64,000 nucleotides of DNA, taken from positions 930,001 through 994,000 of the forward strand of contig CANLXA010000001.1 in assembly GCA_947494975.1 (NCBI GenBank), in the 5' to 3' direction. This document shows positions 51,352 to 55,314 of the stretch, piece after piece. Under the pieces are notes generated by a model. That model was not told the origin of the DNA, searched no databases, and saw only the letters and a program-made list of their open reading frames with translations. Numbering within the stretch: the first letter of the stretch is position 1; every line of letters starts with the position of its first letter. This DNA comes from an uncultured Roseicyclus sp. Lineage in GTDB: Bacteria; Pseudomonadota; Alphaproteobacteria; Rhodobacterales; Rhodobacteraceae. Made by a program: the position numbers and the translations under genes.

Positions 51352-51834
51352 ATGACCTACCGCGCAGATCCCGGCACCCGCATCGGCCACGTGCATCTCA
51401 AGGTCGCGGACCTTGAACGTGCGATTGCGTTTTACGAGCATGTCATCGGCCTGACCGTCACCCAACGATACGGCGATCAGGCGGCGTTTCTGGCCGCGGG
51501 CGCCTATCACCACCATCTTGGCCTCAACACGTGGCACAGCCGGGGCGGGCCGTGGCCCGCAGCGAATGCCACGGGTCTCTATCACAGCGCTTTTCTCTAT
51601 CCCGACCGGGCGGCTCTGGCGCGGGCCGTCAAGCAGGTGGTCGAAGCCGGTGTTCCAATCGAAGGCGCCGCTGATCACGGCGTGTCCGAAGCGGTCTATC
51701 TGAGCGATCCTGATGGAAACGGCATCGAGCTCTACCGCGATCGTCCGCCGGAGGATTGGCCGAAAAACGCCGACGGGAGGTTGAAGATGGTCAACTCACC
51801 GCTCGACGTGGAGGGGCTTTTGGCGTTGGCCTAG
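51352..51834 (+). CDS. VOC-superfamily (glyoxalase/dioxygenase-like) protein
   Basis: 160 residues, one beta-alpha-beta-beta-beta pair: IGHVHLKVADLERAIAFYEHVIGLTVTQRYG opens the fold, and SDPDGNGIELYRDRPPEDW near 123-141 is the closing metal-site strand with the usual glutamate. H19/H21 (IGHVHLKV), with the later histidine in YHHHLGLNTW and E133, could bind a metal. It resembles bacterial CatE-like proteins of about 160-280 residues and may be a single-domain ring-cleavage or detoxification enzyme. Substrate unknown. A GGAGAAACCATC site precedes the ATG. Confidence 0.88.
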   Translation: MTYRADPGTRIGHVHLKVADLERAIAFYEHVIGLTVTQRYGDQAAFLAAGAYHHHLGLNTWHSRGGPWPAANATGLYHSAFLYPDRAALARAVKQVVEAGVPIEGAADHGVSEAVYLSDPDGNGIELYRDRPPEDWPKNADGRLKMVNSPLDVEGLLALA

Positions 51835-51871
51835 TGCCTCTGTGCAGTCACGCACCAACCTGCGCGGCGCA

Positions 51872-51904
51872 TTAACTTTACATTAACAATCTGCACCGTA
51901 TATG
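51872..51904 (+). promoter_or_regulatory. CtrA-box promoter of the 72-residue orphan gene
   Basis: TTAAC-TTTACA-TTAAC at 51872-51887 is a perfect CtrA full site. Its middle, TTTACA (51877-51882), doubles as a -35 element, with TATATG (51899-51904) as -10 after 16 bases. The gene starts 40 bases further on. CtrA-activated promoters typically have the box over the -35 region, as here. Confidence 0.6.
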
Positions 51905-51944
51905 GTCACTACACACTTACATCGTTATTCAGGGGGAGATCTGT

Positions 51945-52163
51945 ATGACCAGCCGTCTCACCACCCGGTCGGATACGCCGACCGATAGATTGCCTGACCG
52001 CATTGGTGATCGCATCAGCGCCACCGACACTGCTTGCCGCTCCAAACCTGCCAAGTCAGCGCGGACCGACCGCAAGGCCGCTCCACTTGCGGCGCGCCCT
52101 GCACCGGAAACTGGCGCAACCATGGCCTACCAGCTTGGGTTCGCCTCTGGACCCGGCGCCTGA
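51945..52163 (+). CDS. Small basic orphan protein under a CtrA-like promoter
   Basis: 72 residues, starting MTSRLTTRSDTPTDRLPDRI, with a basic middle (about SKPAKSARTDRKAAP) and a hydrophobic, Gly-ended tail (TMAYQLGFASGPGA). AGGGGGAGA stands 6 bases before the ATG, a strong ribosome site. A recognisable promoter with a perfect CtrA dyad lies upstream. No family is recognised. It is followed after 42 bases by the aminotransferase gene, whose own ribosome site (GGGGAGGGG) argues for separate translation. The strong signals make a real gene likely despite its size. Confidence 0.7.
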   Translation: MTSRLTTRSDTPTDRLPDRIGDRISATDTACRSKPAKSARTDRKAAPLAARPAPETGATMAYQLGFASGPGA

Positions 52164-52205
52164 TTAGGCCCTAACCTCTCTCCTGCACAAGCTGGGGAGG
52201 GGCCG

Positions 52206-53069
52206 ATGGCCGCAGGCACCAATATCAAAACCTATTTCAACGGCGTTTGGCACGATGCCGACGTGCCTGTCCTGCGCGCAGCCGACCATGGCACATGGCA
52301 GGCCACAACCGTTTTCGACGGCGCACGCTACGTGAACGGCCTGGCGCCGGACCTGCGCAAGCATTGCGACCGGGTCGTGCGCTCGGCCCGCGCGCTGTCG
52401 CTGACACCCGGCAAAACCGGCGAAGAGATTTACGATATCGTCTGGGAGGGGCTCAAGCGCTATCCCAAGGACGCCGCCGTCTATGTGCGCCCGATGTTCT
52501 TCGGCATCGATAGCGGCGCCTACGGGCTGGTTCCCGCCGAGACGGAAGCTGGCTTCTGTGTCTGCCTCGAAGAAGTCCCGATCGCGGCCCCCGACGCGGC
52601 GAGCCGCCTGGCGACAACGCAGTTCCACCGCCCCACGCTCGCCACGGCCGTGCTCGACGCGAAGGCGGGCTGCCTCTACCCCAACAATGCGCGAATGCTG
52701 ATGGAAGCGATGTCGAAAGGCTACGACAACGCGCTGGTGTGTGACGCGATCGGGAATGTCGCCGAGACGGCCACTGCGAATATCTTCATGGTCCGCGATG
52801 GCGTGGTCTTCACGCCCATCCCGAACGGCACATTCCTCAACGGCATCACTCGCCAACGCCACATGGCCAACCTGCGCGCCGACGGCCACGACGTGATCGA
52901 ACGTGTCCTGACCTTCGATGATTTCCGCGCCGCCGATGAGGTCTTCATGTCTGGCAACCTCAACAAGGTCACGCCGGTTCTGGAATTCGAGGGCACCCAT
53001 TACCAGCATGGGCCGGTGACCAAACGCGCGCGGGAATTGTATTGGGATTGGGCGGCCTCGGCGGCGTGA
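52206..53069 (+). CDS. Branched-chain-amino-acid aminotransferase-like (class IV PLP)
   Basis: 287 residues. A fold-type IV PLP enzyme: FNGVWHDADVPVLRAADHGTWQATTVFDGARYVNG is the N-terminal pattern, and the catalytic lysine is probably in LDAKAGCLYPNNARMLMEA. ETATANIFMVRDGVVFTPIPNGTFLNGITRQ carries the phosphate-binding and substrate blocks. In the family it transaminates leucine, isoleucine and valine with 2-oxoglutarate, but D-amino-acid aminotransferases share these motifs and the lysine environment differs from E. coli IlvE. I therefore leave the gene unnamed. It lies alone. Confidence 0.9.
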   Translation: MAAGTNIKTYFNGVWHDADVPVLRAADHGTWQATTVFDGARYVNGLAPDLRKHCDRVVRSARALSLTPGKTGEEIYDIVWEGLKRYPKDAAVYVRPMFFGIDSGAYGLVPAETEAGFCVCLEEVPIAAPDAASRLATTQFHRPTLATAVLDAKAGCLYPNNARMLMEAMSKGYDNALVCDAIGNVAETATANIFMVRDGVVFTPIPNGTFLNGITRQRHMANLRADGHDVIERVLTFDDFRAADEVFMSGNLNKVTPVLEFEGTHYQHGPVTKRARELYWDWAASAA

Positions 53070-53137: not shown

Positions 53138-53593
53138 ATGCGCAAGTTTCTCGTCGTGCTCGACGATACACGTGAATGCCTGAACGCGATGCGGTTTGCC
53201 GCAATGCGGGCGCATAATACTGGCGGTGGGGTGGAGATTCTGTCGATCATTCCCCCCGACGAGTTCAACCACTGGATCGGCGTGGGCGACATAATGCGGG
53301 CCGAGGCGCGGGAGCGGATCGAGGCGCATTTCAACGTTTTCGCCAAATGGATGCGCGACAAGCAGGAGATCGATCCAAGCCTCGTGATCCGCGAAGGCGT
53401 GCCGGTCGAACAGATCCTTGCCCATATCGACGAAAGTGACGAGATCGGCGTGCTTGTTCTTGGCGCGAATTCCGGAAAGGGCGGCCCCGGCCCCCTTGTG
53501 ACCGCGATGACAAAAAACGCTGGCAATCTGCCGGTGCCGCTGACGATTGTGCCGGTCGAACTCAGCAAGGAACAGCTGGAAGTCATAACCTGA
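53138..53593 (+). CDS. Universal stress protein (UspA family)
   Basis: 151 residues. The UspA fold starts RKFLVVLDDTRECLNAMRFAAMRAHNTGGGVEILSII, and the nucleotide-binding motif is VLVLGANSGKGGPGPLVTAM (G-x2-G-x9-G type), so ATP binding is likely. The family is induced by growth arrest or redox stress, but its biochemical role is loose. It lies 80 bases before an NDH-2-type dehydrogenase gene, which may be coregulated. No FNR or Crp box was found upstream. Confidence 0.93.
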   Translation: MRKFLVVLDDTRECLNAMRFAAMRAHNTGGGVEILSIIPPDEFNHWIGVGDIMRAEARERIEAHFNVFAKWMRDKQEIDPSLVIREGVPVEQILAHIDESDEIGVLVLGANSGKGGPGPLVTAMTKNAGNLPVPLTIVPVELSKEQLEVIT

Positions 53594-53673
53594 ACTGTTT
53601 TGCATAACAGCCATTCTTGGCAAATCCCTCGTGCCCGGCCTATCTACGGCCTGAACCTGAAGGGATCCGCAAC

Positions 53674-55314
53674 ATGGCCAGACCACGCATTGTCATCCTC
53701 GGCGGCGGGTTCGGGGGGCTTTACACCGCCCGTGCGCTGCGCCGTGAGTTTGGTGAGAGCGCCGAGATCGAGCTGATCACGGCCGAAAACTATTTCGTTT
53801 TTCAACCGCTGCTGCCCGAGGTGGGGGCAGGCTCCGTCACGCCGATCCATGCGACATCGCCTTACCGGTTCCTCCTCAAGGGCGTGACGATCCGCAAGGC
53901 GTGGATCGACAGCGTGGATTTTGCCGCCAAGATCGTGACCGTGTTTCAGGGTGTGCAGCGCCGCCCGACCGAAGTGGCCTACGACCATCTTGTGGTGGCC
54001 CTCGGACAGGTTGTGGATCTGTCCCGCACACCGGGCCTCGCGGCCCATGCCCTCACGATGAAGTCGCTGGAAGATGCCCGGCGCTTGCGCGGCCACGTGA
54101 TCGAACGGCTGGAACATGCCGACATCACGAACCTGCCCGAGGTCAAACGCGGCGCCTTGACCTTCACGGTGATCGGCGGCGGATTTTCGGGAATCGAGAC
54201 GGTGGGTGAAATGGCCGAACTGATCGACCGCTCCCTGAAATACTATCCCAATGTCGACAGGTCCGAGGTGCGGATCGTCGTGCTGGAATTCGCCGACCGA
54301 ATTCTGGCGGAAATGCCGGAGAAGCTCCGCGCTTACGCGCTGAAGCAGCTGGCGCGCCGCGGGGTGGAGGTTCGCCTGAATACGGGCATCGCATCGGCCA
54401 CGGGTACACAGCTGACCACCACAGACGGTGACACGATTGATTGCCGCACCATCGTGGCGACCATCGGCAATGCGCCCGCGCCTGTTGTCGGGCGGATGGA
54501 TGTGCCGCTGACCCATGGGCGCATCGCGGTAGAGCGGGACCTATCGGTGCCGGGCCGTGACAGCGTCTGGTCCCTCGGGGATTGCGCGTTGATCCCCATG
54601 AAAGACAACGCCGAGGCGCGCGAGGATTTCGCGCCGCCCACGGCACAATTCGCGGTGCGCGAGGCCCGCCAGCTGGCCGCCAACATCGCGCGCGCTCATC
54701 GCGATGAAACGACGCTGCCTTTCGAATACACGTCCAAAGGCGCCATGGCATCACTTGGCGCGCGGCGCGGGATTGCGGATGTCATGGGCCTCCAGGTCAC
54801 CGGCTTCCTCGCCTGGCTCCTCTGGCGTGCCTACTACGTGGCATTTCTTCCCGGGTTCCCGGCGAAAGTCTGGGTGACGAGCCATTGGATCCTCGATTGG
54901 GTCACGCCGCGATCATTGGTAAACCTGCGCTCCCATACCCCGCCCGCCGCGCGCTACGTCCATTACGCGCCGGGCGACCGGATCTACGAGGTTGGGAACC
55001 GCGCGGACGGTTTCTACACCGTCACCGAAGGGCTGGTGGAGATCACGACAGAGGATCCCCGCGCCGATCAGCCGCGCATCCGTCAGATCGGGCCGGGCGG
55101 CCATTTTGGTGAACGATTGATCCTTGGCGCCACGCGGCGCGTGGCCTCTGCCCGAGCGGTCGAGGCAACGACCGTCCTCGTGCTCGACCGCGACGAATTC
55201 ATGAAGCTGACCGACGCGATCCCCCAGATGCGCAGTTACTTCGAAGGTCATCTGGCGCGAGAAGGCCTGGATTGGCCTCCGGCAGCGGGTGAACGTCCGG
55301 ACGCGGCGGAATAG
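53674..55314 (+). CDS. Type II NADH dehydrogenase-like protein with C-terminal cyclic-nucleotide-binding domain
   Basis: 546 residues. FAD motif VILGGGFGGLYTARALRREFG (7-27) and NAD motif FTVIGGGFSGIETVGEMAEL form the two Rossmann halves of an NDH-2-like oxidoreductase. A C-terminal segment VWSLGDCALIP follows, then membrane-interacting sequence (VTGFLAWLLWRAYYVAFLPGF). Residues 430-520 form a cNMP-binding domain: HYAPGDRIYEVGNRADGFYTVTEG and cassette GERLILGATRRVASA (479-493). The enzyme is likely to transfer electrons from NADH to quinone at the inner membrane, and the extra domain suggests control by cAMP or cGMP. The ATG at 53674 gives the family N-terminus. Confidence 0.93.
   Translation: MARPRIVILGGGFGGLYTARALRREFGESAEIELITAENYFVFQPLLPEVGAGSVTPIHATSPYRFLLKGVTIRKAWIDSVDFAAKIVTVFQGVQRRPTEVAYDHLVVALGQVVDLSRTPGLAAHALTMKSLEDARRLRGHVIERLEHADITNLPEVKRGALTFTVIGGGFSGIETVGEMAELIDRSLKYYPNVDRSEVRIVVLEFADRILAEMPEKLRAYALKQLARRGVEVRLNTGIASATGTQLTTTDGDTIDCRTIVATIGNAPAPVVGRMDVPLTHGRIAVERDLSVPGRDSVWSLGDCALIPMKDNAEAREDFAPPTAQFAVREARQLAANIARAHRDETTLPFEYTSKGAMASLGARRGIADVMGLQVTGFLAWLLWRAYYVAFLPGFPAKVWVTSHWILDWVTPRSLVNLRSHTPPAARYVHYAPGDRIYEVGNRADGFYTVTEGLVEITTEDPRADQPRIRQIGPGGHFGERLILGATRRVASARAVEATTVLVLDRDEFMKLTDAIPQMRSYFEGHLAREGLDWPPAAGERPDAAE

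Follow-up and report, generated by a model that had tools for sequence, protein, structure and literature searches.

Comparison across genomes shows that a small gene of an uncultured Roseicyclus sp. overlies an older promoter, designated P2, which is predicted to serve the next gene, a class IV branched-chain amino acid aminotransferase (BCAT). Because the gene is laid over P2, its last codons must serve both as protein and as a −35 box. These C-terminal codons thus appear to be constrained twice, by an invariant protein motif and by the −35 element of the next gene, and natural controls separate the two constraints. The explanation that we favor for the whole locus, with a probability of roughly 0.55, is that the small gene has its own promoter (P1), encodes a trans-acting protein, and was laid over P2, with a hairpin that would insulate BCAT from P1. 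The small gene lies in a 64,000-nucleotide stretch of DNA (the window).

Organization of the locus

All features described here lie on the forward strand. The upstream neighbor encodes a glyoxalase/VOC-type protein (51352..51834; PF00903, 5.3e-17), and downstream lie BCAT (52206..53069; PF01063, 4e-44; NF009896, 8.2e-128) and a gene for a universal stress protein (53138..53593; PF00582, 1.5e-8). Between them, the small gene (51945..52163), assigned on the basis of its homologs and dN/dS, runs from an ATG at 51945 to a TGA at 52161-52163 and comprises 72 codons for a basic protein that is predicted to be disordered. It is preceded by a ribosome binding site, GGGGGAG (51932..51938), whose spacer to the ATG is conserved in the genus. 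Promoter P1, TTTACA-N16-TATATG (51877..51904), is predicted from its sequence and from conservation in the genus: the −35 element (TTTACA or TGGACA; 51877-51882 in the window) and the TAT of the −10 element (TATATG; 51899-51904) are kept, with variation, in 13/13 genomes. A CtrA-type box, TTAAC-N6-TTAAC (equivalently TTAA-N7-TTAAC; TTAACTTTACATTAAC, 51872..51887), overlaps the −35 element of P1. An earlier inspection of the letters of the window (the sequence-only reading) had reported this box over the −35 element of the same promoter, followed by a strong ribosome site and an ORF of 72 codons, and all of these are present exactly where it placed them. Its distance of 40 bases from the box to the ribosome site is corrected here to 44.

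The small ORF as a conserved gene

In a tblastn search of 101 genomes, homologs of the small ORF were retrieved from 13/13 genomes of the Roseicyclus-like genus with E values of 1.8e-7 or better. Other matches, outside the genus, were weak, and L017 among them later proved to be a genuine homolog. Profile, pattern, and synteny searches brought the collection to 26 carrier loci, 13 within the genus and 13 outside it (L017, L036, L037, L039, L040, L041, L043, L045, L053, L054, L055, L057, and L074). Five of the 14 genomes matched in one search were dropped because they do not have the C-terminal motif described below (L038, L042, L044, L046, and L047), and L056 was dropped as a duplicate of L036 in both the ORF and the sequence upstream. 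A pattern for the protein tail matched 12/394 genomes of the bacterial family, of which 11 are true loci of the protein family; in G014, the pattern matched the terminal part of a longer ORF that has no relation to the family, and this genome was rejected as a carrier. The single match among 289 genomes of a class-wide sample was the window genome itself.

Both position and reading frame are conserved. The small ORF lies 41 to 42 nt before BCAT in all 13 genus genomes, confirming the conserved synteny before an aminotransferase gene that the sequence-only reading had proposed as a check. Absence of a conserved ORF or promoter in relatives had been named as the finding that would speak against that reading; both the ORF and P1 are conserved within the genus. 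The coding frame is open in 13/13 genus genomes, compared with 1/13 and 3/13 for the other sense frames, and indels in the genus alignment keep the frame. The antisense frame is open in 11/13; open antisense frames are usual in GC-rich genes. Across 12 distinct genus genomes, excluding L005, whose protein is identical to that of the window, dN/dS was 0.32 for the whole ORF (pS, 0.56; pN, 0.27) and 0.12 for codons 60 to 66. From these comparisons, we conclude that the small ORF is a real gene under purifying selection.

A BCAT tree took in 24/26 carriers and 25/107 noncarriers. Most carriers (22/24) fall in one supported clade (98/96), which also holds one noncarrier, while G047 and G341 are carriers outside it. 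Since carriers are mostly found in one BCAT clade, the small gene either is older than the clade and has often been lost or has sometimes been transferred.

A new family of small proteins

Family searches with 13 members of the small protein gave no match in Pfam (0/13), a single NCBIfam match for 1/13 members (E = 0.23), and matches to three PHROGs families, each by one member and at chance level (E = 0.05 to 0.21). A profile search of solved structures yielded no match up to an E value of 10. An ordinary known family was therefore rejected, as was a plasmid-borne family, since a plasmid collection gave no match at an E value of 0.01. Rfam had no match over 51700-52400, and no published description of the small gene was found among the matches listed in our literature searches. 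By these sequence comparisons, the small protein is a new family. The earlier description of an ORF "of no known family" thus stands, while the term "orphan" does not, given homologs in 13/13 genus genomes and at 13 further loci.

The protein is 65 to 73 residues long in the genus (66 to 73 in most) and 37 to 73 in other carriers. P, A, G, S, T, and Q are abundant in it and hydrophobic residues few, and it is basic in all carriers but one (L037; four K+R versus five D+E). A structure model (pLDDT, 64.5; pTM, 0.14) contained no four-residue helix and no three-residue strand; on this basis the protein is predicted to be disordered, although a model of such low confidence falls short of proof. 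Conservation centers on M-x-Y-Q-x-G-F-x-[STA]-G (codons 60 to 69), a motif whose end coincides with the C terminus or lies no more than five residues from it. Residues M60, Y62, Q63, G65, F66, and G69 are invariant in 18/18 aligned members, while S68 varies. Synonymous choices in the tail vary freely (TAC/TAT, CAG/CAA, GGC/GGG/GGT/GGA, and TTC/TTT). As far as the available descriptions of DUF1127-type small proteins of Alphaproteobacteria extend, these are likewise shorter than 100 residues, basic, and easily missed by annotation; unlike them, the small protein has a different motif and matches no Pfam, NCBIfam, or PHROGs family.

A predicted BCAT promoter within the coding end

Codon use and genome comparison predict P2 as TGGACC-N18-TAACCT (52148..52177), with the −35 element in codons 68 to 70 of the small gene and the −10 element after the stop codon. 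Synonymous variation nearly vanishes at this point: pS is 0.076 for codons 67 to 70, compared with 0.56 for the whole gene. Throughout the genus, S68 is always TCT and G69 is always GGA, and the S-G-P codons (TCT GGA CC) hardly vary synonymously. The string TCTGGACC, followed 18 nt on by TAnnnT, precedes BCAT in 13/13 genus genomes, and three positions of the −10 element (T, A, and the final T) are invariant in 16/16 aligned sequences.

The same element occurs in genomes that do not carry the ORF. For this comparison, 139 genomes were searched for BCAT, 119 matched, and 110 loci were used, 3 of them from carriers. TGGACC-N15-19-TAnnnT was found no more than 120 nt before BCAT in 40/107 ORF-less loci, versus 0.10 expected from shuffles; in ORF-less genera, the spacer is mostly 17 nt. 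Among the carriers, the pattern was not found in 7/25 loci scanned, some of which have near versions by eye. The presence of P2-like elements before BCAT without the ORF, together with the synonymous freeze within it, indicates that these codons are the BCAT −35 element and that the small gene was laid over P2.

Two carriers provide natural controls. G421 has lost BCAT, and its S and G codons read TCG GGC; G047 has a separate BCAT promoter, with a gap of 127 nt between the ORF and BCAT, and its codons read GCA GGC. These codons thus depart from TCT GGA where BCAT is absent or separately promoted, in agreement with the P2 assignment. Taken together, these comparisons suggest that conservation of S-G-P is largely at the nucleotide level, and they call for caution, as part of the conservation seen at such a C terminus can stem from a promoter and not from the protein.

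The sequence-only reading, which centered on the upstream box, missed this larger point, namely, a putative BCAT promoter inside the 3′ end of the small ORF. Separately, TGGACC-N17-TAnnnT (L103-L182 and L076-L102) seems to be a BCAT promoter that is widespread in the bacterial family, with 40/107 genera having it.

A conserved hairpin over the BCAT ribosome site

Folding and comparison identified a hairpin between the ORF stop codon and the BCAT ATG (52175..52202), the 3′ arm of which is the BCAT ribosome site (GGGGAGGGG, 52194-52202). All 13 genus genomes have the hairpin, and inspection showed it in six more carriers. In five others, all outside the genus (L039, L041, L043, L045, and L057), none was seen, and G047 has a different, longer BCAT leader. 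Stability was scored against dinucleotide shuffles, since mononucleotide shuffles flattered the hairpin. Over 16 sequences, z ranged from −1.3 to −6.0, with 15/16 at or below −2.3; the weakest was that of G008 (z = −1.3; 33/300 shuffles were as low). Wider folding windows gave z values of only −1.8, −1.1, and −2.1. At least 73% of the BCAT ribosome site is paired in the minimum-energy fold of 16/16 sequences. Changes on both sides of the stem were found at one position with CG in 10 and TA in 5 sequences and at another with CG in 8 and GC in 5, counts that lean towards pairing because they were taken from each sequence's own minimum-energy fold. Conservation of the hairpin is thus shown, and masking of the BCAT ribosome site would be expected from it.

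The 5′ arm begins within or downstream of the −10 element of P2 (TAnnnT), and the position of this element would put the P2 transcription start near 52183-52185, at the edge of the hairpin or in its loop. With the start at this point, only read-through RNA should be masked. A comparable arrangement is reported for phage T4 gene e (and also for soc, gene 49, and I-TevI), where a hairpin in the long RNA covers the Shine-Dalgarno sequence and a nearby upstream promoter yields RNA without the 5′ part of the structure (PMC3014915). The two systems share a hairpin over the ribosome site on the long RNA and a proximal promoter, which is predicted in our case. Unlike T4 gene e, BCAT is a chromosomal metabolic gene, its masking is a prediction, and the predicted proximal promoter lies within the coding region for a small protein that is itself conserved. 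The architecture, a predicted promoter inside a coding end combined with a putatively masked ribosome site, is a variant of known devices.

The CtrA-type box

The sequence-only reading had proposed the small gene as an undescribed member of the CtrA regulon; on this view, phosphorylated CtrA would bind the box at −35 and activate P1. We consider this a tentative possibility at slightly less than even odds. The conserved gene, P1, and an encoded CtrA (L199; NF045991, 429 bits versus a cutoff of 350, 4e-129) speak for the proposal, while the box is perfect in only 6/13 genus genomes. The motif occurs once in the window and in none of 100 dinucleotide shuffles. Genome-wide, it has 15 matches (12 distinct places, three palindromes being counted on both strands) versus 11 for the reversed pattern. 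With no enrichment over the reversed pattern, an exact match carries little weight by itself.

TTAACT..ACATT stands at a fixed place before the ORF across the genus (consensus, TTAACT(TT/GG)AC[AT]TT), while the sequence directly 5′ is not conserved, and this constant position lifts the box above chance. When the 13 genomes are aligned, the box is perfect in six; four genomes show a single mismatch, two show two, and one shows three. The left half, TTAAC, is intact in 11/13 and the right half in 6/13, the latter thus being degenerate in 7/13. The motif scan in relatives suggested by the sequence-only reading thus found the box at a constant position within the genus; outside it, only 1/13 loci had a match with no more than one mismatch. 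The P1 counterparts of L054 and L055 are ordinary looking (TTGACT..TATATA). The box, which has decayed in 7/13 genus genomes and is nearly absent elsewhere, where promoters look ordinary, therefore seems to have been added within this genus to a promoter that already existed.

Other perfect sites in the genome, before radA and radC (the latter of which we take to be a CtrA target), are consistent with CtrA control of P1. So is the position of the box, since CtrA activation sites are reported near −35 (PMC6180460) and a full TTAA-N7-TTAAC site is described over the −35 element of a sigma-70-like promoter (PMC6180460 and PMC4046655); promoters of the Rhodobacterales and Caulobacter CtrA regulons have this arrangement, which P1 shares. 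In Dinoroseobacter, the site form given is TTAAC-N5-GTTAAC (PMC7232146). Unlike such regulon promoters, P1 carries a direct repeat without the G of that form, which radC keeps, and its box is half-degenerate in part of the genus and not kept outside it. As side observations, perfect palindromic sites lie before radA and one unnamed gene, and a TTAAC-N5-GTTAAC-like motif with no more than one mismatch lies upstream of radC in 14/14 genus loci (L209-L222).

Action in cis or in trans

A small ORF before a biosynthetic gene may also be a leader, as are TnaC, SecM, and other leader or arrest peptides. We regard it as unlikely that the small ORF encodes a cis-acting arrest or coupling peptide, with ribosomes on its last codons opening the hairpin for BCAT translation. 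Like TnaC/SecM-type leaders, it is a small ORF placed just before an enzyme gene whose ribosome site lies in a hairpin, and its C terminus is conserved; the N terminus of the small protein is variable. Some arrest peptides have G-P near their end, and the G-P of the small protein resembles these, but S-G-P is conserved largely at the nucleotide level. The stop codon lies 34 to 49 nt before BCAT in 24/25 carriers with an adjoining BCAT, which a cis role would also explain; the exception is G047, where survival of the ORF with a gap of 127 nt speaks against a leader. In contrast to such leaders, the ORF holds the predicted BCAT promoter inside it, so that the main BCAT RNA would have no leader, and it shows no regulatory run of Leu, Val, or Ile codons. 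The position of P2 predicts a separate BCAT RNA in 13/13 genus genomes, with read-through from P1 possible.

The ORF is also not confined to loci where BCAT follows, G421 (L040) being the counterexample in one genome. This genome is a single contig, 99% complete, in which the order of VOC gene, small ORF, and stress protein gene is kept, and BCAT is cleanly missing between the latter two; the best BCAT match anywhere in the genome has 29% identity. The small ORF is intact, with a dN/dS of 0.34 to 0.44 versus its three nearest relatives (L053-L055). Since G421 lost BCAT and kept the ORF under selection while its S-G-P codons drifted, this one genome favors a protein acting in trans over a leader peptide. 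Another absence in G421 is that of a large ORF found in the window just after the stress protein gene (53617-55314).

Proposed mechanism and further alternatives

In the trans-acting explanation, the small protein most likely uses the M-x-Y-Q-x-G-F-x-[STA]-G tail at its C terminus to dock with a partner, and the variable, basic N-terminal part would act as a tether. P1 would transcribe the small gene, and in the genus CtrA may activate it via the −35 box. Read-through RNA from P1 would fold the hairpin over the BCAT ribosome site, while RNA started at P2 would be without most of the 5′ arm. With P2 RNA thus free and P1 RNA masked, BCAT would be made from P2 and insulated from P1. The family is small, easily deleted, and, as far as sampled, confined to one bacterial family, so that the tail partner and the CtrA question are directly testable.

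A stronger version, which we consider quite improbable, holds that this is a new tail-docking family under CtrA control in which firing of P1 raises the docking protein and lowers BCAT at once. Polymerase from P1 would cross the embedded P2 and make BCAT RNA with a masked ribosome site; if true, one CtrA-responsive promoter would tie amino acid metabolism to cell state in cis.

Finally, it is extremely improbable that the ORF is not a gene and that its apparent conservation reflects neighboring genes and regulatory DNA, namely, a hairpin and two promoters, because, although tail conservation is partly promoter driven and the first 12 codons show low synonymous variation in one subclade, the dN/dS values of the ORF and of its tail are low with synonymous sites near saturation, indels are in frame, the frame is open in 13/13 genomes, and both G421 and G047 retain the motif although released from the promoter constraint.

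Two further stretches of low variation precede or enter the gene. Within subclades, the ribosome site, the ATG spacer, and the first codons (51932-51960) vary little even synonymously (pS of 0.08 and 0.30 for codons 1 to 12), which suggests a nucleotide-level constraint on the translation start or an RNA target site. Between the P1 −10 element and the ribosome site, ATCG (51921-51924; mostly within ACATCG) is invariant in 13/13 genus genomes.
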